Position numbers and translations under genes: made by a program. Under the pieces are notes generated by a model, which made no database searches, had not been told where the DNA came from, and saw only the letters and a program-made list of their open reading frames with translations. 64,000 nt of DNA from Salipiger bermudensis (GTDB lineage: Bacteria; Pseudomonadota; Alphaproteobacteria; Rhodobacterales; Rhodobacteraceae): assembly GCF_020171625.1 (NCBI RefSeq), contig NZ_JAIUZY010000003.1, positions 558,001 through 622,000 on the forward strand, in the 5' to 3' direction. This document shows positions 46,875 through 63,762 of the stretch, piece by piece; within the stretch, counting starts at the first letter, position 1, and every line of letters starts with the position of its first letter.

Positions 46875-47125
46875 GTCGTCTCCTTCACGTTCCGCCGCGC
46901 CGCGCTAGATGGCGCCAAACCGGGATAGACAGCCCAAGGGGACGGGGCAAGCGATGCAGACGAGACACAACAGCCCGACGATTCAACGGGTGGCTGAAAC
47001 GTGAACCGCGGGACGAGGGCCGCGATGATATTGCCTTCCCTAGCGTCCACGATTGCACTGGGTTACGGTGGGCTGATCTCGCCCACAGGGCGACCTGCCC
47101 CGTGGCCCGAGAAAGGAATGTTTCA
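46875..47125. promoter_or_regulatory. divergent upstream region of the DauA-like gene and tamA
   Basis: About 250 bases between a minus-strand oxidase gene and tamA. It must hold both promoters. No operator recognised. Confidence 0.45.
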
Positions 47126-48937
47126 GTGACCATCCGGCGTCTTGCTGCCGCCTCCGGCACCGCCCTCTGCCTCGCCTCCGGCCCCGTCGCGGCGCTCGAT
47201 GACGTTCGTTTCACGAGCCCGGCCATGTCCGACGACCTGGGCGCGCAAATTCGCAACAACTCTGCGCTGGCCGCCGCCGAGGCCGAGTCCGAAGACGGCC
47301 GGATCTCGGGACAGGACGTGCTCGCCGCGGCGCTTTCGGATTACGGCATCCTGCTCGAGACGCTCTATGCCAATGGCTACTACGGCGGCGTGATCAGCAT
47401 CCTGATCGACGGTCGCGAGGCGTCGGAAATCCCGCTTCTCAGCACACCCGAAAACGTCGGCACGGTCACAGTTCGGATCGACACCGGCCCCTCCTTCAAG
47501 TTTGGCCGGACCGAGCTGACCCCGCTGGCGCCCGAAACCGTGCTGCCAGAGGGCTTCGCACGTGGCAAGACCGCTCGCGCCTCGGTGGTGGGCGATGCCG
47601 CTGACGCCGGCGTCGACGGCTGGCGCGATATTGGCCACGCCAAGGCCGAGATCACCGGCCAGCAGGTCACCGCCGATCACCGCAGCAACGAGCTCGACGT
47701 GGCGATGCGCATCACGCCCGGCCCGCAGCTGCGCTTCGGCAAGCTCGATACCGACGGCTCGAGCGCCGTGCGCAGCGCGGCGCAGCGCCGCATCGCCGGC
47801 CTGCCCACCGGAGAGAGGTTCGACCCGGACGAGGTTCAGGAGGTCACCAACCGTCTCACCCGCACCGGCACCTTTTCCAGCGTCACCGTGCGCGAGGCGG
47901 AGCAGCCGAACGCGGACGGCACGCTCGACATCATCGTCGACCTGGTCGACAACAAACCCCGCCGCTTCGGCTTCGGCGCCGAGGTCTCGTCGCTCGAGGG
48001 GCTGAGCCTCACCGCCTTCTGGCTGCATCGCAACCTCTGGGGCGGCGCCGAGCGGCTGCGCATCGACGCAGAGGTCAGCGATATCGGCGCCTCCGGCAGC
48101 GACGCGCTCGATGCCAGCCTGACCGCGCGGCTCGAAGTTCCGGCCGCCATCGCCGAGCTCGGCCCCAAGACCGATGCGTTCTTCGAGGCATCGATCGGGG
48201 CGCTGAACGAGCCGACCTACTCGGCCGATACCGCCCAGCTGACCGCCGGTCTCACCCGCCGCTTCAACGACGATCTGAGCGGCGAGATCGGTGTCGGGCT
48301 GCTCTATTCCCAGACCGAAGACGATCTTGGCGAGCGCGAGTTCCTGCTGTTCACGTTGCCGCTCTCGCTGACATGGGACAAGCGCGACGTTGACCTTGAC
48401 CCGACCTCGGGCTGGTATCTCGATACCGAGCTGACACCGTTCTTCGATCTCGACGGCGACGGCCACGGTGCGCGGCTCTACTCCGACCTGCGCGGCTATT
48501 ACGGTTTCGGCGAAAGCAAGAGCACCGTGCTCGCCGGCAGGCTTCAGCTCGGCTCGGTGGTTGGCTCCGAGCTTGAGGACACGCAGCCCGAGTTCCTGTT
48601 CTATTCCGGCGGCGCCGGCACCGTGCGCGGCCAGCCCTACCAGTCGCTCAACGTCGAATTCGACGGCAACGAGATCGGCGGCCGCAGCTTCCTCGGCCTG
48701 TCCACCGAACTGCGGCAGGACATCAACGAGACGTGGGGCGTGGTCGCCTTCGCAGACGCGGGCTACATCAGCGAAGCCAGCACCCCCGGCACCGAGGGCG
48801 ACTGGCACGCGGGCGCCGGCCTCGGCGTGCGCTACTCAACCCCGATCGGTCCGCTCAGGTTCGACGTCGCCGGCCCGGTCTCGGGCGACACAAGCGAAGG
48901 GGTACAGGTTTACATTGGCATAGGTCAGGCATTTTGA
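47126..48937 (+). CDS. tamA: outer-membrane translocation factor TamA (BamA/Omp85 family)
   Basis: A 603-residue outer-membrane protein of the translocation and assembly module. A signal peptide is seen with cleavage near VAALD; POTRA-like repeats follow (about 40-270, for example ERFDPDEVQEVTNRLTRTGTFSSVTV), then a C-terminal 16-strand barrel ending in Phe (YIGIGQAF). I prefer the GTG at 47126, with AAGGA 8 bases upstream, over the GTG at 47102. The stop overlaps the start of tamB. TamA works with TamB to insert some outer-membrane proteins and to move lipids. Confidence 0.92.
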   Translation: MTIRRLAAASGTALCLASGPVAALDDVRFTSPAMSDDLGAQIRNNSALAAAEAESEDGRISGQDVLAAALSDYGILLETLYANGYYGGVISILIDGREASEIPLLSTPENVGTVTVRIDTGPSFKFGRTELTPLAPETVLPEGFARGKTARASVVGDAADAGVDGWRDIGHAKAEITGQQVTADHRSNELDVAMRITPGPQLRFGKLDTDGSSAVRSAAQRRIAGLPTGERFDPDEVQEVTNRLTRTGTFSSVTVREAEQPNADGTLDIIVDLVDNKPRRFGFGAEVSSLEGLSLTAFWLHRNLWGGAERLRIDAEVSDIGASGSDALDASLTARLEVPAAIAELGPKTDAFFEASIGALNEPTYSADTAQLTAGLTRRFNDDLSGEIGVGLLYSQTEDDLGEREFLLFTLPLSLTWDKRDVDLDPTSGWYLDTELTPFFDLDGDGHGARLYSDLRGYYGFGESKSTVLAGRLQLGSVVGSELEDTQPEFLFYSGGAGTVRGQPYQSLNVEFDGNEIGGRSFLGLSTELRQDINETWGVVAFADAGYISEASTPGTEGDWHAGAGLGVRYSTPIGPLRFDVAGPVSGDTSEGVQVYIGIGQAF

Positions 48938-51900
48938 AACGGTTTCTCCTCCTCCTCTCCCTGCTTCTCGGACTGTCCCTGCCCGCGATGGCGCAGGAGG
49001 AAGACGAGGGCACCCGGCTTGAACGCCTGATCGAGAACGCGCTCTCGGGCGAAGGGATGGACGTGACGGTGCGCGGCTTACGCGGCGCGCTGAGCTCGGA
49101 GGCCACCATGGAGCGCCTCACCATTGCCGACGAACAGGGCATCTGGCTGACGCTGGAGAATGCCACGCTTGACTGGAGCCGCCTTGCGCTGCTTCGCGGA
49201 AGGCTTCAGGTCGACGAGTTGAGCGCCGAGCGGCTGGAACTGGCCCGCCTGCCCGCCTCCGGCTCGTCCGCGCCCGCCCCCGAGGCCAGCGGTGGTAGCT
49301 TTGCGCTGCCTGACCTGCCGGTCTCGGTGAACGTGGGCCGCTTCGCCATCGACACGGTCGAGCTTGGCGCGCCGGTGATCGGCGAGGATGTCACGCTCAA
49401 TATCGAGGGCACCGCCCAGCTCGCCGATGGCGAGGGCAATGTCGAGCTTGCCGTGGTGCGTGCGAACGGCCCCACCGACGCGCTGACCTTCACCGGCAGC
49501 TACGCCAACGACACCCGGGAACTGCTGGTCGATCTCGTGCTCGAGGAAGGCTCCGGCGGCCTGCTGACCACCCGGATGGGCCTGCCCGGCGCGCCGCCGA
49601 TCCGCCTTGCGGTGCAGGGCGAAGGCGTGGTCGACGATTTCACCGCCGATCTCACGCTCGCCACCGATGGCGAGGACCGCTTCGCCGGTCAGATCACGCT
49701 GGAGGGCATCGAGGATCAGGGCCATCGCTTCGCGGCCGATCTCGAGGGTGACCTGCGGCCGCTGCTGCCGCAGGAGCAGCGCGCCTTCCTCGGGGACAAC
49801 CAGCTTCTGCGCACCCGCGGCATCCTCGAGACCGGCGGCGCGCTCGAGCTCGAGGAGCTGACGCTCGAGACCGCCGCGATGTCGCTCGCCGGCGAGGCCC
49901 GCATCGGTGCCGAAGGCTGGCCTGAGCGGCTGCGCCTGTCGGGGCGCATCGCCTCCGAGGATGGCAGCCCGGTGCAACTCGCCTTCGCGCAGGACGGAAC
50001 GCTTGTCGAGCAGGCGACTCTGTCGCTGTTCTTCGACGCCTCACAAGGCGACGAGTTCAGCCTCGAACTGGCACTGCAGGGGCTCGACCGCCCCGAGATG
50101 TCGCTGCAGAGCGCCCAGCTTACCGGCACCGGCATCATCGCCAAGAACGACACCAGCAGCCTGCCCGGCGCGGTGCGCGGACAGCTCGACCTCGATGTGG
50201 CGGGGCTGGCCTTCTCGGATGCCTCGCTGGCCGAGGCCACCGGTGACGCGATGACCGGCGCGCTGCAGTTCGACTGGCAGCAGGGCTCGCCCTTCGAGAT
50301 CACCGGCATCGACCTGAACGGCGCCGGCATCGACGTGCAGGGCGAGATGCTGTTCTCGGGCCTGACCGAGGGCGCCGACCCCACCATCGAGCCCGACCTG
50401 CAGATCCGCGCCGAGGACCTTGCCCGGTTCTCGGGTCTTGCCGGGCGCGAGCTCGGCGGCGATGCCGATGTGCGTGTCTCCGGCCGGGCCGAGCCGATCT
50501 CGGGCCGCTTCGACATCACCGTGGCGGGCAACGCCACCGATCTCGCCGCCGGTATTCCGCAGCTCGACAGCCTTCTGGCCGGCGACCTGACGCTCGATGC
50601 AACCGCGGCACGGACCGAGCTGGGCACGTTCCTGCGCAACCTCGATCTCGACGGGCCGGGCATCGTCGTCACCGCCGATGCGCAGCTCCAGACCGGCGCC
50701 AGCAGTGGCAAGTTCGACCTGACCCTGCCCGACCTGTCACTGGTCGATCCCGCGATGAGCGGCGAGGCCACGCTGACCGGCACCCTCGACGAGGGCGAAA
50801 ACGCCTACGCGCTCGACCTCGTCGCCTCCGGCCCCGGCAACACCCAGTTCGACGGCGTCGTCACCGCCGGCAAGGGCGAAGACGGCGGCATCGTGTCGGT
50901 GGGCTTCACCGGCGATGCCTCGGCCGCCGATCTCGCGGCCTTCGCCGCCATCGCAGGCCGCCCGCTTGCCGGCGCCGCGAGCTTTCAGGGCACCGGCAGC
51001 TACATCCTCGAGACCGGGTATTTCGACGCCGACGGCACGCTGCAGACCCGCGAAGTCGAGATCGGAATCGACGCGGTCGACGGCCTGCTCGAAGGCACCA
51101 CCGACGCCGAGGTCAACGTGACCCGCGATGCGGATGGCATCACCATCCGCCGCGCCGAAGTCGACGGGCCGGGCATCGAGATGACCGCCAGCGGCACGCT
51201 GCTCGAGGCCGGCAGTTCGGCGAGCTTCGACATCACCCTGCCCGATCTGACCCGGCTGCGCGCCGAGGGGCTCTCGGGTCGCGCCATCCTGCGCGGCACG
51301 CTCGAGGAAAGCGCCGAGGCCTATCTTCTGAACCTCGCCGCCACCGGCCCCGCACAGACCAGCATCGACGGCGAGGTGACCGCAACCAAGGCCGAAGATG
51401 GCGGCATCGCGACGGTCGGCTTCGACGGCACGGCGGCGGGCGGCGATCTCTCGGCCTTTGCCGATCTCGCGGGCCGCGAACTCGACGGCGCCTTCAGCTT
51501 CGACGGCGAAGGCGCCTATGCGCTCGAGACCGGCTATTTCGACGCCGACGGCACGCTCGAGACCACCAATCTGGCGATCGGCATCCAGCAGGTCGACGGC
51601 CTTCTGCGCGGCACCACCCGCACCGAGATCGACGTGTCGCGCGATGCCGAGGGCATCACCATCCGGCGCGCCGATGTCGACGGCCCCGGCATCCAGCTCA
51701 CCGCCGATGGCCGACTCGTGGGGGACGGCAGCACCGCCACCTTCAACCTCACCCTGCCCGACCTGAGCCCCGTCGCGCCCGGCATGTCCGGCAGCGTCTC
51801 GGTCTCGGGCGAGCTGCAGGAAAGCGCCGAGGCCTATACGCTCGACTTCACCGCCAGCGGCCCCGGGCAGACGCAGGCCGGCGGCATCGTCACCGCGCGC

Positions 51901-53727
51901 AAGACCGACGAGGGCCAGATCGGCACCGTGGGCTTCGACGGCACCGCCTCGGTGGGGTCGCTGGCCGCCTATGCGCCGCTGACTGGCCAGAACCTGCGCG
52001 GCGGGGTGAGCTTCGACGGCGAAGGCAGCTACACGCTGACCACCGGCGCCTTCAGCGCCGACGGCACGCTCAACACCCGCAACCTCGCCACGGGCATCGA
52101 GATCGTCGACAAGCTTGCCGGCGGCAGCGGCAGCGCCGTGGTCTCTGCCCGGCGCGACGACGCGGGCAACATCACGGTCGAAGAGCTCGATGTGACCACC
52201 TCGCAGATCACCGCCACGATGAACGGCACGCTGAGCCAGTCCGGCGCCAGCGCGCTGCGCTTCGACGTGGCGCTCAACAATCTGGGCGTGATCGTGCCGC
52301 AGCTTCCGGGTCGCGCCACCGCGACCGGGACCATCGGCGGCAATGGCAACGGGCCATGGCAGGTCGACACCCGGATCAACGCCCCGGGCGGCACACAGGC
52401 GACGGTCTCGGGCACGCTGGCGCAGAGCTTCGACAGCGCCAACCTGTCCATCGACGGCAACGCGCCGCTGGCGCTGGTGAACCAGATCGCCGAGCCCAAC
52501 CTGCTCTCGGGCATGGCGCGGCTGAACCTGCGCCTGAACGGACCCCTCGCGCCGGCCTCGCTGTCGGGTACGGTGACGGTCAACGGTGCCGAGGTGGTGC
52601 TGCCGGGGCCGGGGATTTCGATCAACGGCATCAATCTCACCGCCAATCTCGGCGGCGGGCAGGCCCGGCTCGACGTCAACGGCCAGCTCTCGACCGGCGG
52701 GCGTCTCGAGACCACCGGCACCATCGGGCTCAATACGCCCTACACCGCCGATCTGGTGGTCAGGATGCGCGACCTGCTGCTCGAGGATCGCCGTCTCTAT
52801 CAGGCGACCACCAGCGGGCGTGTCACCGTTCAGGGCCCCCTGCTCACCGGGCCGACCATCGCGGGCCGGATCGACATCGAAAAGGCCGAGCTGCGCATCC
52901 CCGAGACCGGCCTCGGGCCGGGCAGCCGCAGCTTCACCCTGACCCATCTGGCCGAGCCGCCCGCGGTGCGCGCGACCCGCGCCCGCGCCGGACTGATCGA
53001 GACCCCGAGCGCCAGAAGCGGCCCGGCCTACACCCTGCCGCTCGATCTCGACATCCGCGCGCCCTCGCGCATCTTCGTGCGCGGCCGCGGCCTTGATGCC
53101 GAGCTTGGCGGCCGGGTGCGGATCACCGGCACCTCGCAGGACATCGTGCCGGTGGGCCGCTTCGACCTGATCCGGGGCCGGCTCGACATCCTCGGCCAGC
53201 GCCTGACGCTCGACACCGCGATCCTGCGCCTGACCGGCGACTTCGTCCCGACCATCGAGGTCGAGGCGACCGCCGAACGTGACGGCACCGTGGTCACCGT
53301 GACGATCGAGGGCGAGGCGACGGAGCCCGAGGTGACCTTCAGCTCGACCCCCTCGCGGCCCGAGGAAGAGGTGCTCGCGCTGCTGCTCTTCGGGCGCGAC
53401 GTGACCGAGCTTTCCGCGCTGCAGGCGCTGCGCATCGCCGCGGCGGTGAACACGCTTGCCGGCAAGGGCGGCGAAGGCATCGTCGGCAATCTGCGCCGGG
53501 GCTTCGGGCTGGATGATTTCGACGTCACCACGGACGCCGAGGGCAATGCCGGGCTGCGCTTTGGCAAGTACCTCAGCGAAGAGCTCTACACCGACGTGGA
53601 GGTCGATTCAGGTGGCGAGACGGCGATCAACCTGAACTACCAGATCAATCGCAACGTCAAGGCCCGCGCCAGGGCCGATACGGGCGGCGACAGCGGTATC
53701 GGGATCTATTTCGAAAAAGACTACTGA
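48934..53727 (+). CDS. tamB: inner-membrane-anchored translocation protein TamB (DUF490)
   Basis: A 1597-residue periplasm-spanning protein anchored by an N-terminal hydrophobic segment (FLLLLSLLLGLSLPAMA). It has the long beta-taco body and the conserved C-terminal DUF490 domain (from about 1250; LEDRRLYQATTSGRVTVQGPLLTGP and the end GDSGIGIYFEKDY). The start is a TTG at 48934 that overlaps the tamA stop (TTGA); no ATG or GTG gives the hydrophobic start. Residues about 593-1110 contain three tandem repeats of about 171 residues. With TamA it links the two membranes. Confidence 0.93.
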   Translation: MKRFLLLLSLLLGLSLPAMAQEEDEGTRLERLIENALSGEGMDVTVRGLRGALSSEATMERLTIADEQGIWLTLENATLDWSRLALLRGRLQVDELSAERLELARLPASGSSAPAPEASGGSFALPDLPVSVNVGRFAIDTVELGAPVIGEDVTLNIEGTAQLADGEGNVELAVVRANGPTDALTFTGSYANDTRELLVDLVLEEGSGGLLTTRMGLPGAPPIRLAVQGEGVVDDFTADLTLATDGEDRFAGQITLEGIEDQGHRFAADLEGDLRPLLPQEQRAFLGDNQLLRTRGILETGGALELEELTLETAAMSLAGEARIGAEGWPERLRLSGRIASEDGSPVQLAFAQDGTLVEQATLSLFFDASQGDEFSLELALQGLDRPEMSLQSAQLTGTGIIAKNDTSSLPGAVRGQLDLDVAGLAFSDASLAEATGDAMTGALQFDWQQGSPFEITGIDLNGAGIDVQGEMLFSGLTEGADPTIEPDLQIRAEDLARFSGLAGRELGGDADVRVSGRAEPISGRFDITVAGNATDLAAGIPQLDSLLAGDLTLDATAARTELGTFLRNLDLDGPGIVVTADAQLQTGASSGKFDLTLPDLSLVDPAMSGEATLTGTLDEGENAYALDLVASGPGNTQFDGVVTAGKGEDGGIVSVGFTGDASAADLAAFAAIAGRPLAGAASFQGTGSYILETGYFDADGTLQTREVEIGIDAVDGLLEGTTDAEVNVTRDADGITIRRAEVDGPGIEMTASGTLLEAGSSASFDITLPDLTRLRAEGLSGRAILRGTLEESAEAYLLNLAATGPAQTSIDGEVTATKAEDGGIATVGFDGTAAGGDLSAFADLAGRELDGAFSFDGEGAYALETGYFDADGTLETTNLAIGIQQVDGLLRGTTRTEIDVSRDAEGITIRRADVDGPGIQLTADGRLVGDGSTATFNLTLPDLSPVAPGMSGSVSVSGELQESAEAYTLDFTASGPGQTQAGGIVTARKTDEGQIGTVGFDGTASVGSLAAYAPLTGQNLRGGVSFDGEGSYTLTTGAFSADGTLNTRNLATGIEIVDKLAGGSGSAVVSARRDDAGNITVEELDVTTSQITATMNGTLSQSGASALRFDVALNNLGVIVPQLPGRATATGTIGGNGNGPWQVDTRINAPGGTQATVSGTLAQSFDSANLSIDGNAPLALVNQIAEPNLLSGMARLNLRLNGPLAPASLSGTVTVNGAEVVLPGPGISINGINLTANLGGGQARLDVNGQLSTGGRLETTGTIGLNTPYTADLVVRMRDLLLEDRRLYQATTSGRVTVQGPLLTGPTIAGRIDIEKAELRIPETGLGPGSRSFTLTHLAEPPAVRATRARAGLIETPSARSGPAYTLPLDLDIRAPSRIFVRGRGLDAELGGRVRITGTSQDIVPVGRFDLIRGRLDILGQRLTLDTAILRLTGDFVPTIEVEATAERDGTVVTVTIEGEATEPEVTFSSTPSRPEEEVLALLLFGRDVTELSALQALRIAAAVNTLAGKGGEGIVGNLRRGFGLDDFDVTTDAEGNAGLRFGKYLSEELYTDVEVDSGGETAINLNYQINRNVKARARADTGGDSGIGIYFEKDY
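50710..52251 (+). repeat. three tandem repeats of about 515 bp inside tamB
   Basis: Repeat units start at 50710, 51223 and 51739 (spacings 513 and 516 bases, 171 and 172 codons). Each begins with the motif FDLTLPDL or FNLTLPDL and holds ETGYFDADGTL or TTGAFSADGTL, then ITIRRAxVDGPGI (lost in the third). Units 1 and 2 are nearly identical in places at the DNA level; unit 3 is more diverged. Confidence 0.85.
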
Positions 53728-54109: not shown

Positions 54110-56569
54110 TCAGAGCGGGATTTCGCTCCGGTTGCCTTCGAGGGTCCAGGTCATCGGGTCGAGCGTCCGGCCCTCGGCGATCACCTTGCCATCGCGACGG
54201 AACTGCACCGTGCCATAGGTCGCATCCTCGACCACCAGGCTGCCGTCCGTAGTTTCGGCCACCTCGAGACGATGCTGCGCAGAGAACCCGGCCAGGTCGT
54301 CGGTCTTGCCCAGCCGGACGATCCAGATGCCCTGGCGCCCCGCCAGACGCAGCTCGTGGCCCGCAGACCCGCCTTCGGACATGAGCTGCAACGGACCGGA
54401 TGCCTGGATAAGCATCGCGCCCCGCCCGCTTCTGGCCGAGGCCCGGTTCCCGTCGACGCTCCAGTCATCGAAGACAGGCGTCGGGAACCACGCGTGCGTG
54501 AAGTTCGGCTGCGGCGCTACGCCATCGAAGCGCACGACGGCCAGATCCCGATACTGCTGCACCCGCGGCACGCTCGCCGAGCCGCCCCAGAACGACGGTC
54601 GTCCGAAGCCGGACTGAACGATCTCGCCCGGATGGTTGATGAACAGGCTGGCCGACGCTTCCCGCCCGATCCGCGCCTGGATCAGGGTTTCCTGATAGCC
54701 CCAATCCTGCCAGCGGTAGAGCGCGGCGCTCCCCAACGCGGTTTCCGAGGTCTTGTAGTGGTAGAGCTTGCAGAAGGCGTTTTCGCCCTGCCAGAACGTC
54801 CACTCCTGCGCCGTGTCCTCGCGCTCCCAGTTGGCGATCTCGGCGAGGTCGGGCATCTCGAGCCCGTGATCCCGCAGCGCGAGCGCCAGCTGCGCAAGGC
54901 AGTTCACGTGCGCGCCGTACTGCCCCTGCCCCCAGAGAAGCCGTGCCAGCCCCGTCAGCTCGAGCGTGTCGGCGACGCAGAGCGAATGCTCGTAGCTGCG
55001 CCCCTGCGCCCCGGTGATCACGCCGTGATGCGCGGAATGCGCCACCATGGTGATCAGCCGGACGATCGCGGCACCCGCGCGCTGGCGGATCTCCGCATCC
55101 GGAGCCAGCGCGAACAGCGCCGTCATGCCCTTGAGGTCGATCGGGAAGTAGGTCGCCGAATTGAACTCGGCCATCTCGGCCTTTTCGAAGTGATCGAACC
55201 ACTCCGTCAGCCGCTCAAAGCCGACACGGCTCTGCTCACGTCCTGAGCGGCCCGACCGGCGGAACTGCGCGTCGGGCAGGAGGTTGCCGGCCAGATAGGC
55301 CGAGGTGTGGAACAGAAGCGCGTGGTTTTCGGAGAAATACCACTGAACGTCGTTTCCGGGCTCGTCCATCCAGAAGCGGAAGTCGAGGGTCGCGGCGTCG
55401 ATCCGCTCCACCAGCGCGGCGGGCAGCCGGTCGGCGTAGACGATCCGCGTCCAGAGCAGCGGCACGAGCGCGAAGTCGGCACAGTCGAAGCAGCGCTCGA
55501 TGCCGGGCAGATTGGTCGTAATGATCTGCTCCGCGCGGGTCAGCGCCTCGGCGTCGCCCACCGCAGCACAGGCCAGCGCCGTCTCGGTGTCGGTCTCGCC
55601 ATGGCGCGCGATCCAGTTCAGCGCCTCGGCGATGCGGTCCTGCGCGCCTGCGGGTGCGGCCCCGGTCTCGCTGCGCCAGGTGACCTCGGCGCCGAGACGC
55701 GCCTGCGCCGTGAAGCTGCCACAGGACAGCGCGAAGTCGAAATACCGGTAGTCTGCCGGGAAGTCCGAGGACGACGCGATCCGGACTTGCGTTGCTCCTT
55801 CCGGGATCTCGACATCGACGTCATGGTGGTCATGCGACATGAAGTGCCCCGCGACCCGGACGCGACCCCGAACCCCTTCGGGGAACGGCACCGGCAGTTG
55901 CAGGTGGATGTCCTGCCCGTCGTAGAGTTTCCTGTCGAGATGCATGGCCTCGAGCGCCGCCTCGACGCCGGCCACCAGATCATCCGAGGCCGGGAAGGTG
56001 TGACTGGCTTGCGCCGCCGGACCGTCCAGCCACGTGAGGGCGATCCGGATGACCGCATCGCGCTCCGCGAGGTCTTCGAACTGCACCGCGATCTCGTTGT
56101 GGCCTTCGGTCAGTTCGGCGTCGAACTCGACCTCGTCCATGGCGTTGCGGGTGGCCGGCGAGATCCACGCCACGGCCCGTCCGTTGACGAAGGCGCGTGC
56201 GGCACCACAAATGCCGAGGCGAAGACGGGCAAAGCCGCCTTGCTCTGCCTTGACGGCTGTCCGCGCCCAGCCCCGGACCTTGGTGGCCCGGAACCAGAAG
56301 CCCGAGAGATCGACGAAGGGCGAGCCGAAGGGCAGCACGTTGCGCGCCTCTGCCCAGTCGGGAAGATCCTCCGCCGCCAGCTCCTTGCCGCGGCGCTCTT
56401 CGATATAGGCGGTGCGGCAGGGATAGGTGTGCGGGATGAAGTTCTTGTCCTTGGTCAGGAAGAAGGTGGAATCCATCTCCCCTTCCATGGGCGTGTCCGC
56501 GACGTTGTATTCGGCTTCATCAAGCCGGGTCACCTGCCAGTAGGGGATCGGGGCTCCGGTGGTCAGCAT
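54110..56569 (-). CDS. large protein of unknown function in the uronate locus, toroid-like (candidate polysaccharide-active enzyme)
   Basis: An 819-residue protein without signal peptide. I cannot name its family with certainty. Residues 1-300 look beta-rich (VEIPEGATQVRIASSSD). The middle (about 310-640) looks all-helical like an (alpha/alpha) toroid and contains conserved-looking polar motifs: SENHALLFHTSAYLAGN (E414, N415, H416), EFNSATYFP (E468, N470) and GRSYEH (R524, Y526). The end is beta-rich again. This layout recalls heparinase II/III-like lyases and related unclassified proteins. It starts 3 bases after the kduI stop, so it belongs to the same transcript. A cytoplasmic hydrolase or lyase acting on an imported uronate oligosaccharide is inference. 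Confidence 0.85.
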   Translation of the reverse strand: MLTTGAPIPYWQVTRLDEAEYNVADTPMEGEMDSTFFLTKDKNFIPHTYPCRTAYIEERRGKELAAEDLPDWAEARNVLPFGSPFVDLSGFWFRATKVRGWARTAVKAEQGGFARLRLGICGAARAFVNGRAVAWISPATRNAMDEVEFDAELTEGHNEIAVQFEDLAERDAVIRIALTWLDGPAAQASHTFPASDDLVAGVEAALEAMHLDRKLYDGQDIHLQLPVPFPEGVRGRVRVAGHFMSHDHHDVDVEIPEGATQVRIASSSDFPADYRYFDFALSCGSFTAQARLGAEVTWRSETGAAPAGAQDRIAEALNWIARHGETDTETALACAAVGDAEALTRAEQIITTNLPGIERCFDCADFALVPLLWTRIVYADRLPAALVERIDAATLDFRFWMDEPGNDVQWYFSENHALLFHTSAYLAGNLLPDAQFRRSGRSGREQSRVGFERLTEWFDHFEKAEMAEFNSATYFPIDLKGMTALFALAPDAEIRQRAGAAIVRLITMVAHSAHHGVITGAQGRSYEHSLCVADTLELTGLARLLWGQGQYGAHVNCLAQLALALRDHGLEMPDLAEIANWEREDTAQEWTFWQGENAFCKLYHYKTSETALGSAALYRWQDWGYQETLIQARIGREASASLFINHPGEIVQSGFGRPSFWGGSASVPRVQQYRDLAVVRFDGVAPQPNFTHAWFPTPVFDDWSVDGNRASARSGRGAMLIQASGPLQLMSEGGSAGHELRLAGRQGIWIVRLGKTDDLAGFSAQHRLEVAETTDGSLVVEDATYGTVQFRRDGKVIAEGRTLDPMTWTLEGNRSEIPL

Positions 56570-56572
56570 GGC

Positions 56573-57409
56573 TCAGCGCAGCTCCGAGATCTGGACCGGG
56601 TCGACGTCGGTATAGGCCTGGTTCTCGCCCGTCATGCCCCAGACGAAGCCGTAGGGTCCGGTGCCGGCGCCCATGTGGATGGACCATGCCGGCGACAGCA
56701 CGATGTCGCCGTCGCCCACCACCAGATGGCGGGTGTTGTCCGGACGGCCCATGAAGTGCATGACCCGATCCTCGGACGACATGTCGAAGTAGCAATAGGC
56801 TTCCATGCGACGCTCGTGCAGGTGCGGCGGCATGGTGTTCCAGAGCGAGCCCTTGGCCGGGTCGGTGATGCCCATCAGCAGCAGGCAGGACGGCGACACC
56901 TCGGGGTGGATGTACATCGCCAGCGAGCGGACGTTGCCCTTCTCGGCCTCGCCCAGGTTCAGCACCTTGGCCTCGGACCGGGTGATCAGGCGGGTCGGAA
57001 TGTCGGCCCCTGCCGGCACCGAGTTCATGTAGAACCAGGGCGGGGTCTGGGCGTCGTCGCTGCCCATGGTCACGGTCTTGGTGCCGCGCCCGATATAGAG
57101 CACATCGCGGTTGGCGAGCGCATAGCGGGTGCCGTCGACCTCGATCCAGCCGGCCCCACCGAGGTTGGCGACGCCCATCTCGCGGGCCTCGAAGAACGTC
57201 TCGGTTCCGACGTCCTCACCGCCGCCGAACGACAGCGGAGCGTCCGTGGGCACGGCGCCGCCGACGATCATGCGGTCGAAATGGGTGTAGGCGAACCCGA
57301 TCTTGCCGGGGGCGAACATCCCTTCGACCATGAAGTTGTCGCGCAGGCGATCGGTGTTCATCGCGTCGATCTGATCCGGGCCAGCCCCGTATTTTTGCAG
57401 CATTCCCAT
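56573..57409 (-). CDS. kduI: 5-keto-4-deoxyuronate isomerase
   Basis: Converts 5-keto-4-deoxyuronate (formed spontaneously from released unsaturated galacturonate or glucuronate) to 2,5-diketo-3-deoxygluconate. The 278-residue cupin has exactly the E. coli length, and its metal ligands fall at H196, H198, E203 (PHLHERRMEAYCYF) and H245 (WSIHMG), the same numbers as in the known enzyme. AAGGAG precedes the ATG at 57409. First gene of a minus-strand operon that continues into the 819-residue protein; controlled from the region shared with the LacI gene. Confidence 0.96.
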   Translation of the reverse strand: MGMLQKYGAGPDQIDAMNTDRLRDNFMVEGMFAPGKIGFAYTHFDRMIVGGAVPTDAPLSFGGGEDVGTETFFEAREMGVANLGGAGWIEVDGTRYALANRDVLYIGRGTKTVTMGSDDAQTPPWFYMNSVPAGADIPTRLITRSEAKVLNLGEAEKGNVRSLAMYIHPEVSPSCLLLMGITDPAKGSLWNTMPPHLHERRMEAYCYFDMSSEDRVMHFMGRPDNTRHLVVGDGDIVLSPAWSIHMGAGTGPYGFVWGMTGENQAYTDVDPVQISELR

Positions 57410-57572
57410 GGAAAGACTCCTTCCGACGTTCAGGCGCGCGGGCACCGGCCCGCGACGTTGCGTTCGAGGAGGGACAGCGACAGGTCGGCCAATGCCGGAC
57501 GCGACGCGTCATCCTCCCGTAAGCGCGTCCTCCCGCGCTTTCAGTCCCGAGCCTTCCCACTAGGAAAACGTT

Positions 57573-57598
57573 TGTGCAATATGTAAATCTATTGCACA
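57573..57598. promoter_or_regulatory. LacI-type operator between kduI and lacI gene (site A)
   Basis: Perfect inverted repeat TGTGCAATA (57573-57581), 8-base spacer, TATTGCACA (57590-57598). The inner 22 bases fit TGCAA-N-AT-N7-TAT-W-SCA, which recurs at 61348 and 61519. A second, LacI-like palindrome AAACGTTT lies next to it (57566-57573). Confidence 0.75.
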
Positions 57599-57642
57599 GT
57601 GGATCGCACATTCAGCATGTTTCCAACAGCGAGGCGCCCCTC

Positions 57643-58659
57643 ATGGCAGGCCCCAGCCGCCCCCGGATCAGCGATATTGCACGCAAGCTCGGGGTCTCCA
57701 CAGCGACCGTCTCACGCGCCCTGAGCGGCAATGGCTACGTGCGGGAAGCCCTCGCGGCAAAGATCCGCTCGACGGCGATCGAGATGAACTATGCGCTGCC
57801 CGGCATGGCGCCGGGTAAGAAGGCGCTGCTGGTCTCGTCGCAAGAGGCGATGATCGATTTCAAGCGCAGCCAATTCACCATGTACGTGCTGGAAGGCCTG
57901 CAGGAGCGCGCCGACGCGCAGGACATCGTCCTCGAGACCCACATCTACCAGGGCGACAGGGCGATGGAGCAGTTGCGCGTCGCCGCCGCGTCCGACGAGG
58001 TCATCGGACTCTTGCTGGTGTCGGTGGACGATGCCGTGCTCGACTTCGTGCGCGGCCTCAACATTCCCGCGGTTCTGGTCAACGGCGACGATCCGGAAAT
58101 GTGCCTGAGCTCCGTGACGCCCTGCAACCGCTCGGCCGCGACGCTGGCGACCCGCCATCTGGTGCGGCTCGGGCACGCGCGCATCGCCTTTCTCAGCCGA
58201 CCGGGGCGGCGCACCATCACGCGGCGTCTCGAAGGCTGGCGCGATGCGCTCGGCGCGCGGGCGGAGCGGGCTCTGGAGCTGGACGTGGAAGACTGGACCG
58301 CCGAAGCCGCGGCGGCCCGGATCGATCAGGCTTTCCGCGCGGGTCAGGAGTTCACGGCGATCGTCGCGGCGGCGGATATCCTCGCCGCGGGGGCCATTCA
58401 GGCGCTGCAGACCCGCGGACTGAGGGTTCCCGACGATATCTCCGTGGTTGGCATCGATGGTCTGCCGCAGGGGCAGTACATGTCGCCCGCCCTGACATCG
58501 GTGCGCATCCCGATGCAGGCCGTGGGCAGCCTGTCGCTCGATCTTCTGGTGGAAACGGTGAAGCTGCGCGCGGCGGGCGTTCCCATGCCGTCCCGGAGAA
58601 TCGAGCTGGCCTGCGAACTGCTCCACCGCGCGAGCGCCGGGCCCGCTGCCGAGCGCTGA
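57643..58659 (+). CDS. LacI-family transcriptional regulator
   Basis: A 338-residue regulator. The N-terminal helix-turn-helix ISDIARKLGVSTATVSRALSGNGYV (about 8-32) is typical, followed by the hinge helix and a periplasmic-binding-protein-like effector domain (RLGHARIAFLSRPG; VVGIDGLPQGQYMSPALTSVR). The ATG at 57643 has GAGG 9 bases upstream and puts the helix-turn-helix at the usual position; an upstream start at 57574 would run through the operator. It probably represses the flanking kduI operon and the TRAP/GH105 genes until an uronate intermediate binds. Confidence 0.94.
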   Translation: MAGPSRPRISDIARKLGVSTATVSRALSGNGYVREALAAKIRSTAIEMNYALPGMAPGKKALLVSSQEAMIDFKRSQFTMYVLEGLQERADAQDIVLETHIYQGDRAMEQLRVAAASDEVIGLLLVSVDDAVLDFVRGLNIPAVLVNGDDPEMCLSSVTPCNRSAATLATRHLVRLGHARIAFLSRPGRRTITRRLEGWRDALGARAERALELDVEDWTAEAAAARIDQAFRAGQEFTAIVAAADILAAGAIQALQTRGLRVPDDISVVGIDGLPQGQYMSPALTSVRIPMQAVGSLSLDLLVETVKLRAAGVPMPSRRIELACELLHRASAGPAAER

Positions 58660-58663
58660 GACC

Positions 58664-59404
58664 TCAGCGCGCCAGCCAGCCCCCGTCGACGTTCAGCACC
58701 GCGCCCGAGACGTAATCGCTTGCCGGTGCGGCAAGGAACACGGCGGTCTCGCCGATGTCTTCCGGACGGCCCCAGCGTCCCGCCGGAATACGCCCCAGAA
58801 TCTCCTTGGAGCGCTCGGGATCCTCGCGCAGCGCCTCGGTGTTGTTGGTCGCGATGTAACCGGGGGCAATGGCGTTCACGTTGATGCCGCTCTTGGTCCA
58901 TTCGTTCGCCAGCAGCTTGGTCATCCCGGCGACCCCGTGCTTGGAGGTCGTATAGGACGGCACGCGGATGCCGCCCTGAAACGACAGGAGCGAGGCGATG
59001 TTCACGATCTTGCCGGTGCCACCGCGGGCAAAGACCTCGCGGGCGAACGCTTGCGAGGTGAAGAAGACCGCCTTGGCGTTGACGTCCATGACATCGTCCC
59101 AATCGGCCTCGGTGAAATCGACCGCATCGGCCCGCCGGATGATCCCGGCGTTGTTGACGAGGATGTCGATCCCGGCCCCCTCGAAGAGGCCCACGCCCGC
59201 CATCGGATCGCTGAAGTCGACGAGCGTTTCCGTGGCCTGCCCTCCGGCGGTAGTGATCCTGTCGACGGTTTCGGCACAGCTGCGGCGGCCGACGCAGGTC
59301 ACCGCAGCGCCCGCACGGGCAAGGGCGACGGCGATCGCCTGACCGATGCCGGTGTTGGCACCGGTGACCAGGGCGTGACGGTTATCGAGAGAAAAAGCAG
59401 ACAT
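58664..59404 (-). CDS. kduD: 2-dehydro-3-deoxy-D-gluconate 5-dehydrogenase (KduD)
   Basis: An NAD(P)-dependent SDR of 246 residues that reduces 2,5-diketo-3-deoxygluconate, the KduI product, to 2-keto-3-deoxygluconate. Motifs: TGANTGIG (14-21), NNAG (84-87), S138 and the YxxxK pair Y151-K155 (YTTSK). Size and context match KduD. It is the last gene of the leftward dctQ-dctM-kduD run and converges with the LacI gene, with only 4 bases between stops. Confidence 0.92.
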   Translation of the reverse strand: MSAFSLDNRHALVTGANTGIGQAIAVALARAGAAVTCVGRRSCAETVDRITTAGGQATETLVDFSDPMAGVGLFEGAGIDILVNNAGIIRRADAVDFTEADWDDVMDVNAKAVFFTSQAFAREVFARGGTGKIVNIASLLSFQGGIRVPSYTTSKHGVAGMTKLLANEWTKSGINVNAIAPGYIATNNTEALREDPERSKEILGRIPAGRWGRPEDIGETAVFLAAPASDYVSGAVLNVDGGWLAR

Positions 59405-59423: not shown

Positions 59424-60746
59424 TTACATGAGGCCGAGGAAGCGCGGGAGCGCCAGGGTGAACCACGGCACGTAGGTCACCAGCGCCAGCGCAAGGCTCG
59501 TGGCGAAGAAGAAGGGCAGGATCGGGCGGATCACCTGATCGATGCGGAGACCGGCCACGGCGCAGCCGACGAACAGCACGCTCCCGACCGGAGGCGTCAT
59601 CGATCCCACCCCGAGGTTGAAGATCATCATGATCCCGAGATGGACGGGATGAATTCCGATTTCCTGAGCGATCGGCAGGAAGATCGGCGTGAAGATCAGG
59701 ACGGCGGGCGTCAGGTCCATGAAGAACCCGATGATGAGCAGGCTGATGTTCATCACCAGCAGGATGACGATCGGGTTGTCGAACGACAGGATGCCCTCTG
59801 CGATGATGTCCGGGATGCCCGCGATCGTCATGACGTAGGACATGATGCCGGACGCCGCGATCAGGAACAGGATCGAGCAGCTCGTCACGGCGGACGAGAC
59901 CAGGGCCTCGACATACTCGCGCCAGCTGGCCATCCGGTAGAGCAGCGACAGCAGGAACGAATAGAGCACCGCAACCGCCGCGCCTTCGGTCGCGGTAAAG
60001 GCGCCGATGGCGATGCCGCCGATGACCACGACCACCATCAGCAGCGACGGCAGAGCCGCCCAGAAGGTGCGCAGCGCTTCACCGAAGCTCGTGCTGGCCT
60101 CGCTGCGGTAGCCGCGGCGCCACGCGATGACGGTGATGACACTCATCACCGACAGACCCATCAGCAGGCCGGGCCCGTAGCCCCCGATGAACAGCGCCGA
60201 GATCGACGTGCCACCGGACACCAGCGAGAACAGGATCAGCGGCCCCGAGGGCGGGATCAGGATGCCGGTGGGGGCCGAGGCAATGTTGACCGCGGCGGAG
60301 AACCGGCGATCATAGCCCTCCTTGGCCTGCAGCGGACCCATCACGCCGCCAACCGCCGCAGCCGCGGCGATGGACGAGCCCGAGATCGACCCGAACAGCA
60401 TGTTGGCGATGACATTGGTGTGCGCGAGCGCCCCCGGCATACGCCCCCCCACCAGCTTGGCGAGGTTGATGAGGCGAATGGCGATGCCGCCCTTGTTCAT
60501 GATGTTGCCGGCCAGAACGAAGAACGGGATGGCCAGCAGCGTGAAGCTGTCGATCCCGGAGAACATCTTCTGCGCCCCGACGAAGAAGATCACGTCGGTC
60601 GGCAGGTAGACCATGCCGACCAGCAGGGACGAGACCCCGATCGCGATCGAGATCGGGGTGCCAAGCGCCAGAAGCCCGAAGAACAGCGCGAAGAGCGAGA
60701 CCGCCGCCCCGGCAGGGTCGAGCATGTAGTCGATCAGGAAATCCAT
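59424..60746 (-). CDS. dctM: TRAP transporter large permease (DctM family)
   Basis: A 440-residue membrane protein with about 12 helices. DctM landmarks: NVIANMLFGSISGSSIAAAAAVGGVMGPLQ, APTGILIPPSGPLILFSLVSGG and TPPVGSVLFVGCAV. It starts one base after the dctQ stop. It is the sodium-coupled channel of an importer that, by context, carries unsaturated uronate mono- or disaccharides. Confidence 0.95.
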   Translation of the reverse strand: MDFLIDYMLDPAGAAVSLFALFFGLLALGTPISIAIGVSSLLVGMVYLPTDVIFFVGAQKMFSGIDSFTLLAIPFFVLAGNIMNKGGIAIRLINLAKLVGGRMPGALAHTNVIANMLFGSISGSSIAAAAAVGGVMGPLQAKEGYDRRFSAAVNIASAPTGILIPPSGPLILFSLVSGGTSISALFIGGYGPGLLMGLSVMSVITVIAWRRGYRSEASTSFGEALRTFWAALPSLLMVVVVIGGIAIGAFTATEGAAVAVLYSFLLSLLYRMASWREYVEALVSSAVTSCSILFLIAASGIMSYVMTIAGIPDIIAEGILSFDNPIVILLVMNISLLIIGFFMDLTPAVLIFTPIFLPIAQEIGIHPVHLGIMMIFNLGVGSMTPPVGSVLFVGCAVAGLRIDQVIRPILPFFFATSLALALVTYVPWFTLALPRFLGLM

Positions 60747-60747
60747 G

Positions 60748-61248
60748 TCAGACGGCCTCCTCGGGCAGCTCGACCGGGCTTATGCGGCCGGTCGCGATCA
60801 GGATCGTATTGATCGCCTGCAGTGCAATGATCAGCCCAGCGGAGACCGGAACTGCGAGATAGATCAGGCCCATCGAGAGCTGCATGATCGGAGAGAGCTG
60901 GGACATCGCCGACTGGCTGGCGTGCCAGCCCCCCATCAGCATGACGAACCCGGCAAATGCGATCGTCACCAGCCCGTTGAACACGCCGAGCGTCTTCTGC
61001 GCCCAGGGCGGGCTGATATGGACCAGAAGCTCGAGAGACAGGTGCTTGCGGGTCCCGAAGCAGTAGGCCGTACCGAGCAGCGCCATCCAGATCATCGAGA
61101 ACCGCAGGGTTTCTTCGGTGAACAGGGCCGGTGTCGCCAGCACGTAGCGCGTGAACACCTGCCACAGCATCAGGCAGACCATGATGACCAGCAGGGCGCA
61201 GATCAGGACCAGAAGCGCGCGCTCCAGTCCCTTTTTGAATAAAAGCAT
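60748..61248 (-). CDS. dctQ: TRAP transporter small permease (DctQ family)
   Basis: A 166-residue protein with four helices starting MLLFKKGLERALLVLICALLVIMVCLMLWQVFTRYVL; the FTRYV motif and the E in FTEETLRFSMIW are usual in DctQ. The ATG at 61248 has GAGGAG upstream; the frame runs on upstream of it through the promoter region but lacks family signal. First gene of the leftward dctQ-dctM-kduD operon. Confidence 0.93.
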   Translation of the reverse strand: MLLFKKGLERALLVLICALLVIMVCLMLWQVFTRYVLATPALFTEETLRFSMIWMALLGTAYCFGTRKHLSLELLVHISPPWAQKTLGVFNGLVTIAFAGFVMLMGGWHASQSAMSQLSPIMQLSMGLIYLAVPVSAGLIIALQAINTILIATGRISPVELPEEAV

Positions 61249-61347
61249 GTGTTTGGCTCCTCTCCGGCGGGCCTTGGGGCACAGGTCTCCTCCCGCACCC
61301 TCCCGCGGTGCGGCCCCGGCGCGACCTTGGGATGTGAAAACCGTGCG

Positions 61348-61369
61348 TGCAACATGAAAAATTATTCCA
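61348..61369. promoter_or_regulatory. operator-like site B upstream of dctQ
   Basis: A 22-base match to TGCAA-N-AT-N7-TAT-W-SCA, about 100 bases before the dctQ start. The left half is intact; the right half reads TATTCCA. Probably bound by the same LacI protein as site A. Confidence 0.6.
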
Positions 61370-61518
61370 TACTGGTGGTGGTTTTGGCATTTTTTAGCGA
61401 GCGGGAGACCAAAAGCCCAAGCACTGTTCGCTTCACCCCCGCGCCATGACTGAAAAGTACGAACCATAATAGCGGCTTAAGGCCGCACTTCCCAAGCGCG
61501 AGCAGCAAAACGCGAGCA

Positions 61519-61540
61519 TGCAAAATAATTACATATAGCA
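61519..61540. promoter_or_regulatory. operator-like site C upstream of dctP
   Basis: A third match to the 22-base pattern (TGCAA, A, AT, 7 bases, TAT, A, GCA), about 105 bases before the dctP start. It faces site B across the divergent promoter region. Confidence 0.6.
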
Positions 61541-61644: not shown

Positions 61645-62619
61645 ATGACATTCAAGACACTTGCCCTTTCCGCGACCGCAGCGCTGGCCCTGTTTGCCGG
61701 AAGCGCGGATGCGAAAACTCGCCTGCGCCTCGCGAACTCGCTTTCCGAGGACCACCCCACGAGCACCGCATTGCAACAGTTCGCAGATGAGGTGGAAGAG
61801 AGAACCGACGGTGAAGTCACCATCCGCGTTTTCCTCAACGGCGTTCTCGGCTCCGAGCGCGAGGTGCTCGAGCAGCTGCAGAACGGCGCCGTCGACATGA
61901 CCCGCGTGAGTGCCGGCAACCTCGAGAACTTCGATCCGGTCTTCAAGGCTTTCACCCTGCCCTACATCTTCACCAGCGAAGACCAGTTCTATCGCGTGAT
62001 GACGGGACCGGTGGCCGATGAGGTCTACGCCGCGACCGAAGGCAGCGGCTTCACCGGCCTGACCTTCTTCGACAGCGGCGCGCGCTCGTTCTACACCAGC
62101 GACAAGCCGATCGAGACTCCCGCCGACCTCGAAGGCGAGAAGATCCGGGTGATGAACTCCAACAGCTCGATCCGCATGGTCGAGATGATGGGCGGCACCC
62201 CGACCCCGATGCCCTACGCTGAAATCTACACGTCCCTTCAGCAGGGGGTCATCGACGGCGCCGAGAACAACGTCACTGCGCTGACCATCGGCCGTCACGG
62301 CGAGGTCGCCAAGTACTACAGCCAGGACGAGCACCTGCGGGTTCCCGACTTCCTCGTGATCTCGAACGCGGCGATGGACAAGCTGACCGAAGAGCAGCAG
62401 GCCATCATCAAGGAAGCTGCGGTGAACGCCACCGAAGCGTTCCGCGGCATCTGGGCCGAGGCGATCTCTGACGCCCGCGCCGAAGCCGAAGAAATGGGCG
62501 TGACCTTCGTCGAGCCCGACCAAGCGCCGTTCCGCGAGAAAGTCATGCCACTGCTCGATGAGTATCGCGACGATCCCGATTTCGGCGACGTGCTCACCCA
62601 GATCCTCGAAACCGAGTAA
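61645..62619 (+). CDS. dctP: TRAP transporter solute-binding protein (DctP family)
   Basis: A 324-residue exported binding protein. The signal peptide ends near SADA (residue 23). Family segments are clear: NLENFDPVFKAFTLPYIF, LEGEKIRVMNSNSSIRMVEMMGG (the Arg that binds a ligand carboxylate) and PYAEIYTSLQQGVIDGAENN. GGGAGGA precedes the ATG. It captures a carboxylated sugar; with kduI, kduD and GH105 nearby an unsaturated uronic-acid oligosaccharide is likely. Transcribed with the hydrolase gene that follows. Confidence 0.94.
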   Translation: MTFKTLALSATAALALFAGSADAKTRLRLANSLSEDHPTSTALQQFADEVEERTDGEVTIRVFLNGVLGSEREVLEQLQNGAVDMTRVSAGNLENFDPVFKAFTLPYIFTSEDQFYRVMTGPVADEVYAATEGSGFTGLTFFDSGARSFYTSDKPIETPADLEGEKIRVMNSNSSIRMVEMMGGTPTPMPYAEIYTSLQQGVIDGAENNVTALTIGRHGEVAKYYSQDEHLRVPDFLVISNAAMDKLTEEQQAIIKEAAVNATEAFRGIWAEAISDARAEAEEMGVTFVEPDQAPFREKVMPLLDEYRDDPDFGDVLTQILETE

Positions 62620-62664: not shown

Positions 62665-63762
62665 ATGATGACCGAGACTGTGAACCTGCAAGACGACATT
62701 CGAGAGAAGATCGCCCTGATCGTCTCCGGGCTGCGCAACCTTCGAGACGAGGGGCGTTTCGACGAACCCAACCTCGATGGCACAGCGGGGGACTACGTCA
62801 GCTTCGACAGTTGGGAGTGGCCGCAGGGGGTTGGCCTCTATGGCATCGCGCAGCTCTGGAAACAGACCGGGGATGCCGATGCGCGGGCGCTGCTGGAAGA
62901 CTGGTACGACACCCAGTTTTCCCGCGGCCTGCCCAAAATGAACGTGAACACGACAGCGCCGATGCTGGCGCTGTCGATCCTCTGGTCGGAAACCCGCGAC
63001 CCCAAATGGGAGCCGGCAATGCGCGACTGGGCGCAGAAGCTGCTCACCGAGGCCCCGCGCACCGCGGGCGGTGGTTTCCAGCACGATGTGTCGGACAAGA
63101 TCAACGAAGGCGAGCTCTGGGACGACACGCTCTTCATGCTGGCGCTGTTCCTTGCCAGCTACGGTCAGGCGAGCGGCCAAAGCGAGCTCGTCGACGAGGC
63201 GGCCTACCAGTTCCTCGTGCACACCCATTACCTCGCCGAGCGCGAGACCGGGCTCTGGTTCCACGGCTGGACCTTCGACGGCAACCACAACTTCGCCCGC
63301 GCCCGCTGGGCCCGCGGCAACAGCTGGATTTCCGCCGGCGTGCTCGACCTCTTCGATCTGGCAGAGCTCGACCCGGCCACCAAGCGCTTCCTGTCGTGGA
63401 TCGTGACGTCGCAGCTCGAAACCCTGCTGAGCTATCAGTGCGAAAGCGGTGCCTGGCGTACGCTTGTCGACGATGAAACCTCCTATGAAGAGATCTCCGC
63501 GACGGCCGCGATCGGCTACGCGCTGCTCAAGGCGCACCGCCTTGGCCTCGGAGACGCGCGCTGGCGCGACGGCGGGATCAAGGCCCTCAAGGCCGTCCTC
63601 GCCAACATCGACAAGGACGGGGTCGTGCAACAGGTGTCCTATGGCACGCGCATGGGCCACGATCTGCAGTTCTATCGCGACATCCCGATCCAGCCGACGG
63701 GCTACGGCCAGTCGATGGCCCTGCTGTGCCTGGTCGAGGCCCTCAATCACGAGGCGGTGTAA
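62665..63762 (+). CDS. unsaturated glucuronyl/galacturonyl hydrolase (GH88/GH105 family)
   Basis: A 365-residue (alpha/alpha)6-barrel enzyme without signal peptide. Hydrates the double bond of the terminal unsaturated uronic acid in oligosaccharides made by polysaccharide lyases and so releases it. The motif ELWDDTLFM carries the catalytic Asp (D153 or D154), matching the (V/D)D of YteR/YesR. WARGNSW, ISATAAIGYALL and PTGYGQSMALL are further family segments. The length fits GH105 well. The start could be 62665 or the next ATG. It releases the unsaturated uronate that KduI and KduD then process. Confidence 0.92.
   Translation: MMTETVNLQDDIREKIALIVSGLRNLRDEGRFDEPNLDGTAGDYVSFDSWEWPQGVGLYGIAQLWKQTGDADARALLEDWYDTQFSRGLPKMNVNTTAPMLALSILWSETRDPKWEPAMRDWAQKLLTEAPRTAGGGFQHDVSDKINEGELWDDTLFMLALFLASYGQASGQSELVDEAAYQFLVHTHYLAERETGLWFHGWTFDGNHNFARARWARGNSWISAGVLDLFDLAELDPATKRFLSWIVTSQLETLLSYQCESGAWRTLVDDETSYEEISATAAIGYALLKAHRLGLGDARWRDGGIKALKAVLANIDKDGVVQQVSYGTRMGHDLQFYRDIPIQPTGYGQSMALLCLVEALNHEAV

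Follow-up and report, generated by a model that had tools for sequence, protein, structure and literature searches.

The window analyzed here is a 64,000-nucleotide stretch of Salipiger bermudensis DNA (contig NZ_JAIUZY010000003.1, forward-strand positions 558,001 to 622,000), and coordinates below count from its first letter. At 54110–56569 on the minus strand lies a gene with an ATG start for an 819-amino-acid protein, which we annotate as a candidate uronate oligosaccharide lyase from its open reading frame, a family alignment, AlphaFold2 models, and Foldseek searches. The frame is no chance frame because 39 homologous frames, 27–93% identical to it and free of internal stops, align with it. 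It starts 3 bases past kduI (end at 56573), in agreement with the spacing given in the original prediction, and its N-terminus (MLTTGAPIPYWQVT...) likewise appears, by eye, to lack a signal peptide.

The neighboring kduI (56573–57445, minus strand; 5-dehydro-4-deoxy-D-glucuronate isomerase) scored 361 bits against NF002091 (cut-off 250). Its listed start is a GTG, and the true start may lie ~12 codons later (an annotated homologue has 278 amino acids). Beyond a predicted LacI-type operator-like site (57575–57596, plus strand; TGCAATATGTAAATCTATTGCA) follow a gene for a LacI-family regulator (57640–58659, plus strand; PF00356 and PF13377) and kduD (58664–59404, minus strand; 2-dehydro-3-deoxy-D-gluconate 5-dehydrogenase; TIGR01832, 376 bits, cut-off 339). 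A TRAP transporter is encoded by dctM for the large permease (59424–60746, minus strand; PF06808, E = 7.9e-114), dctQ for the small permease (60748–61467, minus strand; PF04290, E = 2.1e-29), and dctP for the solute-binding protein (61645–62619, plus strand; PF03480, E = 1.5e-83). The listed start of dctQ is probably too far upstream, since an annotated homologue is 501 bases long. A second predicted LacI-type site (TGCTATATGTAATTATTTTGCA; 61519–61540, minus strand) sits between dctQ and dctP. The last gene, at 62665–63762 on the plus strand, encodes a GH88/GH105-type unsaturated uronyl hydrolase (PF07470, E = 3.8e-82, 276.5 bits, cut-off 26.6). The claim that KduI, KduD, and a GH105 enzyme surround the gene was therefore borne out, all three lying above their profile cut-offs (NCBIfam, NCBIfam, and Pfam, respectively). 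As an aside, two adjoining plus-strand ORFs at 47102–53727 resemble, by eye, a TamA/TamB-type outer-membrane assembly pair.

The solved chains nearest in sequence to the GH105 partner were 3qwt, 3pmm (titled 'putative cytoplasmic protein'), and 4xuv; farther away were YteR and an unsaturated rhamnoglycuronyl hydrolase chain. The second D of its WDD motif aligns with the D of WLDG in the YteR-like 4wu0, and this aspartate is catalytic in YteR. The partner also exceeded the cut-off of NF051900, named "beta-galactosidase BglB" in NCBIfam (531 bits, cut-off 420). This name does not fit the unsaturated uronyl hydrolase role and the KduI/KduD setting, and our searches for its origin gave nothing useful. 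A further GH88/105-type gene is present in the same genome (G000:C18:8736-9740).

Next, we collected relatives of the 819-residue protein. Whole-genome searches, the window genome counted each time, were positive for 2 of 41 near relatives, 24 of 394 genomes of the taxonomic family, and 9 of 398 genomes of the phylum. The 24 include L031, which we judged a false match: it aligns over 119 residues only, and its ORF looks AddB-like by eye. A contig scan added six loci, from Pseudosulfitobacter, a Rhodobacteraceae bacterium, Pseudooceanicola, two Rhizobium, and Microvirga. Farther relatives occur in Catenovulum (Gammaproteobacteria), Subdoligranulum (Bacillota), and the haloarchaeon Haladaptatus (Archaea), whose form has 661 residues and is without the N-terminal domains. 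No relative was found in the viral contigs scanned. The archaeal short form (L098, 8791–10776) adjoins an annotated heparinase II/III protein, and five Gfo/Idh/MocA oxidoreductases and two sugar phosphate isomerases lie beside it; the locus has no GH105 match.

The family alignment holds 40 proteins, some of them mutually close: 25 orthologues including the window protein (46–93% identity to it) and 15 members of a paralogue group (27–30%). Fragments (L030, L032, and L033) and a sequence identical to that of the window (L001) were omitted, and the L028 sequence was taken from a position other than a start codon. The motifs singled out in the original prediction, SENH at 413–416, E468, N470, and GRSY at 523–526, are located exactly as claimed. 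S413, E414, N415, H416, E468, N470, G523, R524, and Y526 are invariant in all 40 members, and S525 varies. In a 10-member set reaching to Bacillota and the archaeon, E414, N415, H416, E468, G523, R524, and Y526 were again invariant, with S413 and N470 conserved at 90%. This set also has as invariants D362, C363, D365, F366, W400, D402, W410, H421, S471, Y474, and D478, and, C-terminal to GRSY, Q626, H646, W661, and H692.

We then examined gene linkage. Gene maps from our home-made ORF picker have overlong starts, and linkage was therefore counted by tblastn. The 45 loci examined, not all of them independent, comprised the window, 6 loci from a related-locus search, 33 genome loci, and 5 plasmid loci. 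GH105 was found within 6.2 kb in 41 of the 45, the misses being L007 (Rhizobium sp. CCGE 510), L060, L061, and the archaeal L098. For scale, 41 whole genomes contained 16 GH88/105 matches above cut-off, the window's own counted. At paralogue loci, spanning alpha- and gamma-Proteobacteria to Bacillota, GH105 was present in 19 of 19, on the same strand and with a gap of 0–545 bases; kduI was found in one of these loci and was absent from the other 18. At orthologue loci, GH105 was present in 22 of 25 and kduI in 21 (directly upstream in 20; four lack it), and the transporter match was to a TRAP permease in 8 and to an ABC sugar-binding protein in 16. Three orthologue loci (L007, L060, and L061) have neither GH105 nor kduI in the stretch examined. 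All three retain lacI, an ABC sugar transporter, and, at 6 mismatches, a weak operator-like site, and an additional peptide-type ABC transporter is encoded in L007 and L060. Tight linkage to GH105 might also be expected of a binding, scaffolding, or otherwise non-catalytic partner protein of that hydrolase, and the enzymatic role is one that we infer. We regard such a partner as very unlikely, because polar invariants (E414, N415, H416, H421, E468, Y474, R524, Y526, H646, and H692) are kept from Proteobacteria to the archaeal member, whose locus has no GH105 match.

Some loci carry additional genes that might bear on the substrate. KDG-kinase-like genes are found in L048 and L057 (289 and 254 bits, under the NCBIfam cut-off of 400), and L046 carries an FGGY sugar kinase. 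Upstream in L047 lie one gene resembling 2,4-didehydro-3-deoxy-L-rhamnonate hydrolase (445 bits) and one resembling a sugar-acid dehydratase (248 bits), each under a cut-off of 500. Alongside the paralogue, a GH28 gene occurs in L075–L077 and in two Rhizobium plasmids (L099 and L100). These neighbors, in a few loci, hint at a substrate of the deoxysugar or pectin type.

The two divergent promoter regions of the window cassette share the 22-base operator-like site, with 18 of 22 positions identical. Because the search pattern was built after looking at these two sites, its matches in the window are true by construction. With up to 4 mismatches allowed, 10 of 24 relatives yielded 17 sites, each of which lies in a divergent promoter region of the cassette. 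Five of them are located between lacI and kduI, and seven between dctP and the TRAP permeases; the other five have lacI on one side and, on the other, GH105 (four sites) or the TRAP permeases (one site). The remaining 14 relatives had no site at this threshold; 9 had weaker sites only (5–6 mismatches), and 5 (L052, L054, L055, L056, and L062) had none. Markov simulations of the same loci gave no site in nine runs and one site in another. No site was found in 42 loci retrieved for other families (152,793 bases in total), nor in window positions 1–54000 at 5 mismatches. The real evidence for these predicted sites is that they recur at corresponding places in relatives. They would link the cassette promoters and so join the gene for the 819-residue protein with the GH105 and Kdu genes.

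The original prediction placed the protein outside characterized families. Consistent with this, Pfam, NCBIfam, and PHROGs gave no placement and no meaningful match, and no strong match to a characterized family of another role was seen in these databases or among PDB sequences. For the window protein, Pfam returned no family at E ≤ 1, and neither PF07940 (Hepar_II_III_C) nor PF05426 (Alginate_lyase) was among its matches or among the 17 weak families listed for the 40 members. PDB sequences, searched with the single protein and with the 40-member profile, contained no convincing relative. The best weak scores, to RodZ_C in Pfam (E = 0.0068, in 5 of 40 members), to a designed protein in the PDB (E = 0.025), and to a PHROG entry without a function (E = 0.35), were not meaningful. 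Comparisons by hhalign to alignments made from loci carrying PF07940, PF05426, PF17389, and GH105 were not significant, and those to heparinase II/III-type and alginate-lyase alignments reached a probability of 1.5% or less with E = 0.03 or worse. For an alginate lyase (L102), hhalign paired N415-H416 with an NNH motif at E ~0.1 and a probability below 1%, a match that we did not count. Among the open-licence PMC papers that our searches listed, we recognized none as a description of the protein family. As the sequence tests failed, we do not claim membership in a named lyase family.

Predicted structure was examined with two AlphaFold2 models that were each folded from an alignment of 7 sequences only. 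The full-length model had a mean pLDDT of 74.6, and residues 295–819 modeled alone gave a pLDDT of 77.1 and a pTM of 0.80; conserved loops fell below a pLDDT of 50 in both. By AlphaFold2 and Foldseek, the predicted domains are GH2-like beta domains at ~1–300, an alpha/alpha toroid at ~305–580, and a C-terminal beta-sheet domain at ~585–805. The helical middle with beta-rich flanks that had been proposed from the sequence is thus seen in the models.

A Foldseek search of the PDB with residues 295–819 returned, at ranks 1–22, 21 chains of toroid-plus-beta uronate lyases, with human dermatan sulfate epimerase as the remaining entry. E-values ran from 2.3e-7 to 4.1e-3, query-length TM-scores were modest (0.31–0.47), and rmsd was 9–14 Å. 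The lyases were of PL17, heparinase III, PL15, glycosaminoglycan (GAG), chondroitin, and xanthan types, together with a PL8 alginate lyase. The suggested heparinase II/III-like layout is supported to this extent, and the models, of moderate confidence, point to an alpha/alpha toroid plus beta-sheet domain as in heparinase II/III-type lyases.

GH2 hydrolases headed the match list of the full-length model, owing to its N-terminal beta domains; that list also contained Alg17c (PL17), the alpha-L-rhamnosidase 3w5n, and BACCELL_00875. We considered whether the protein might instead be an alpha/alpha-toroid glycoside hydrolase, in a GH78-like layout, trimming the oligosaccharide before or after GH105. 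The full-length model matches the GH78-type rhamnosidase 3w5n at rank 4, most of its top ranks are taken by GH2 enzymes, and 3 of 40 members touch the Pfam beta-galactosidase galactose-binding model (E = 0.047 or worse). However, the catalytic half alone matches glycoside hydrolases only from rank 24 onward (E = 6.6e-3 or worse), and we found neither a PF17389 (Bac_rhamnosid6H) match nor profile similarity to the GH78 alignment. We judge a glycoside hydrolase to be unlikely.

The original prediction proposed checking whether the named residues cluster in a cleft. The alignment has 33 invariant residues in toroid positions 305–580, of which 21 fall in odd-to-even helix connections and 3 in even-to-odd ones, counting three flanking residues per side of each predicted connection. 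Odd-to-even connections 1-2, 3-4, 5-6, 7-8, 9-10, and 11-12 hold 0, 4, 10, 1, 6, and 0 invariants, respectively, and even-to-odd connections 2-3, 4-5, 6-7, 8-9, and 10-11 hold 0, 0, 3, 0, and 0. Since odd-to-even connections share one face of an up-down toroid, the named motifs would point to one side, a topological argument. The named residues would share this predicted face and may meet there in one pocket, although the conserved loops are among the poorly modeled regions.

PMC11848413 describes PL12, PL15, PL17, PL21, PL33, and PL39 as sharing the toroid-plus-beta fold, gives H311/Y365 in PL15, H202/Y257 in PL21, and Y258 in PL17 as catalytic residues, and reports a contribution of a C-domain His or Tyr in several of these families. 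These positions put His and Tyr 54 residues apart in PL15 and 55 in PL21; the distance in PL17 is 56 (H202 and Y258 taken from PDB titles). The 819-residue protein has 58 residues between N415-H416 and Y474, near these values, followed by H646 in the C-domain, all invariant in the 10 members. By analogy, N415-H416, Y474, and H646 are likely to be the neutralizer, the base/acid pair, and the helper.

According to PMC11848413, the lyases and dermatan sulfate epimerase have catalytic apparatus in common, and human dermatan sulfate epimerase 1 (6hzn) had the top query TM-score (0.47) within ranks 1–22. Both points would suit a uronate C5-epimerase of the same fold, preparing an oligosaccharide, either mixed or already unsaturated, for the pathway. 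Such a cassette, however, would hold GH105 and KduI without a gene making their unsaturated substrate, and no other lyase was identified among the neighboring ORFs that were scanned in orthologous loci. Within the window cassette of transporter, regulator, GH105, KduI, and KduD, the 819-residue protein is the only candidate for the step forming an unsaturated uronate. The human enzyme, while sharing the predicted fold, differs in being an epimerase without an unsaturated product, and an epimerase seems to us quite unlikely here.

Collectively, these results make it likely that the protein is a cytoplasmic PL-type enzyme making the unsaturated uronate that GH105, KduI, and KduD consume. Its fold class and pathway are well supported, lyase function itself is probable, and we infer the reaction, the roles of single residues, and the order of steps. 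In the proposed scheme, the TRAP transporter, replaced in many relatives by an ABC sugar transporter, would import an acidic oligosaccharide, which the enzyme would cut next to a uronate by beta-elimination in the cytoplasm. The enzyme, with N415 as the proposed residue, would neutralize the uronate carboxylate; H416, Y474, and H646 would move the C5 proton and the leaving group; and the new end would be left with a 4,5-unsaturated uronate. GH105 would then take off this residue, and KduI and KduD would convert the resulting 4-deoxy-hexosulose uronate to 2-keto-3-deoxygluconate. Our best guess for the substrate is a deoxysugar-(1,4)-uronate, for example a fragment derived from rhamnogalacturonan or from a rhamnosyl-glucuronate.

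Several known systems invite comparison with this candidate lyase. PL22 oligogalacturonate lyase is cytoplasmic, feeds KduI and KduD, and has a beta-propeller fold; it resembles the proposed role and differs in fold from the 819-residue protein, which is no beta-propeller. PL17 oligo-alginate lyases (Alg17c, 4nei/4ojz/4ok4; 7bjt) have the same predicted toroid-plus-beta fold and also have an Asn preceding the catalytic His. They differ in that we found no sequence or profile similarity, the GH2-like N-terminal domains and the GH105 partner belonging to the 819-residue protein; to our knowledge, alginate degradation needs no GH105. Heparinase III and PL15 lyases (5jmf, 4mmi, and 3afl), among which Atu3025 is called an exotype lyase in its PDB title, appear to share the fold class, whereas PF07940 is unmatched by the 819-residue protein and the hhalign score is not significant for this group or PL21. 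PMC8377490 describes the PL27 rhamnose-glucuronate lyase BACCELL_00875 (5no8), with an N-terminal beta-sandwich and an alpha/alpha barrel, as acting on rhamnose-capped glucuronate, a layout like that predicted here; the three PL27 enzymes named there come from Bacteroides. 5no8 ranked 47 for our full-length model (TM-score 0.15) and fell outside the top 50 for the catalytic half.

More tentatively, the protein may found a new PL family in Proteobacteria, Bacillota, and haloarchaea, existing mostly as a two-gene module with GH105, in which a toroid-plus-beta half joined to acquired GH2-like N-terminal domains removes a rhamnose- or fucose-type deoxysugar from a 1,4-linked uronate in the cytoplasm; we would not put this fuller account at even chances. 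If the protein is a lyase, it would provide the first step that the GH105-KduI-KduD route otherwise lacks, and the proposal can be tested directly through the operator-like site and the few invariant candidate residues.

Lyase activity would also give a function to an unassigned family found in 199 plasmid records, 123 of them from Rhizobium and 40 from Pseudosulfitobacter, and would point to a substrate that algae or plants exchange with their bacteria. Among the plasmid matches listed, the gene is named hypothetical protein or is unannotated, and the carriers include many legume-nodule rhizobia and diatom-associated roseobacters. Many of the Pseudosulfitobacter records with the gene come from diatom hosts, and in strain H46 of this genus the cassette lies on a conjugative-type plasmid (L101, NZ_CP054603.1).
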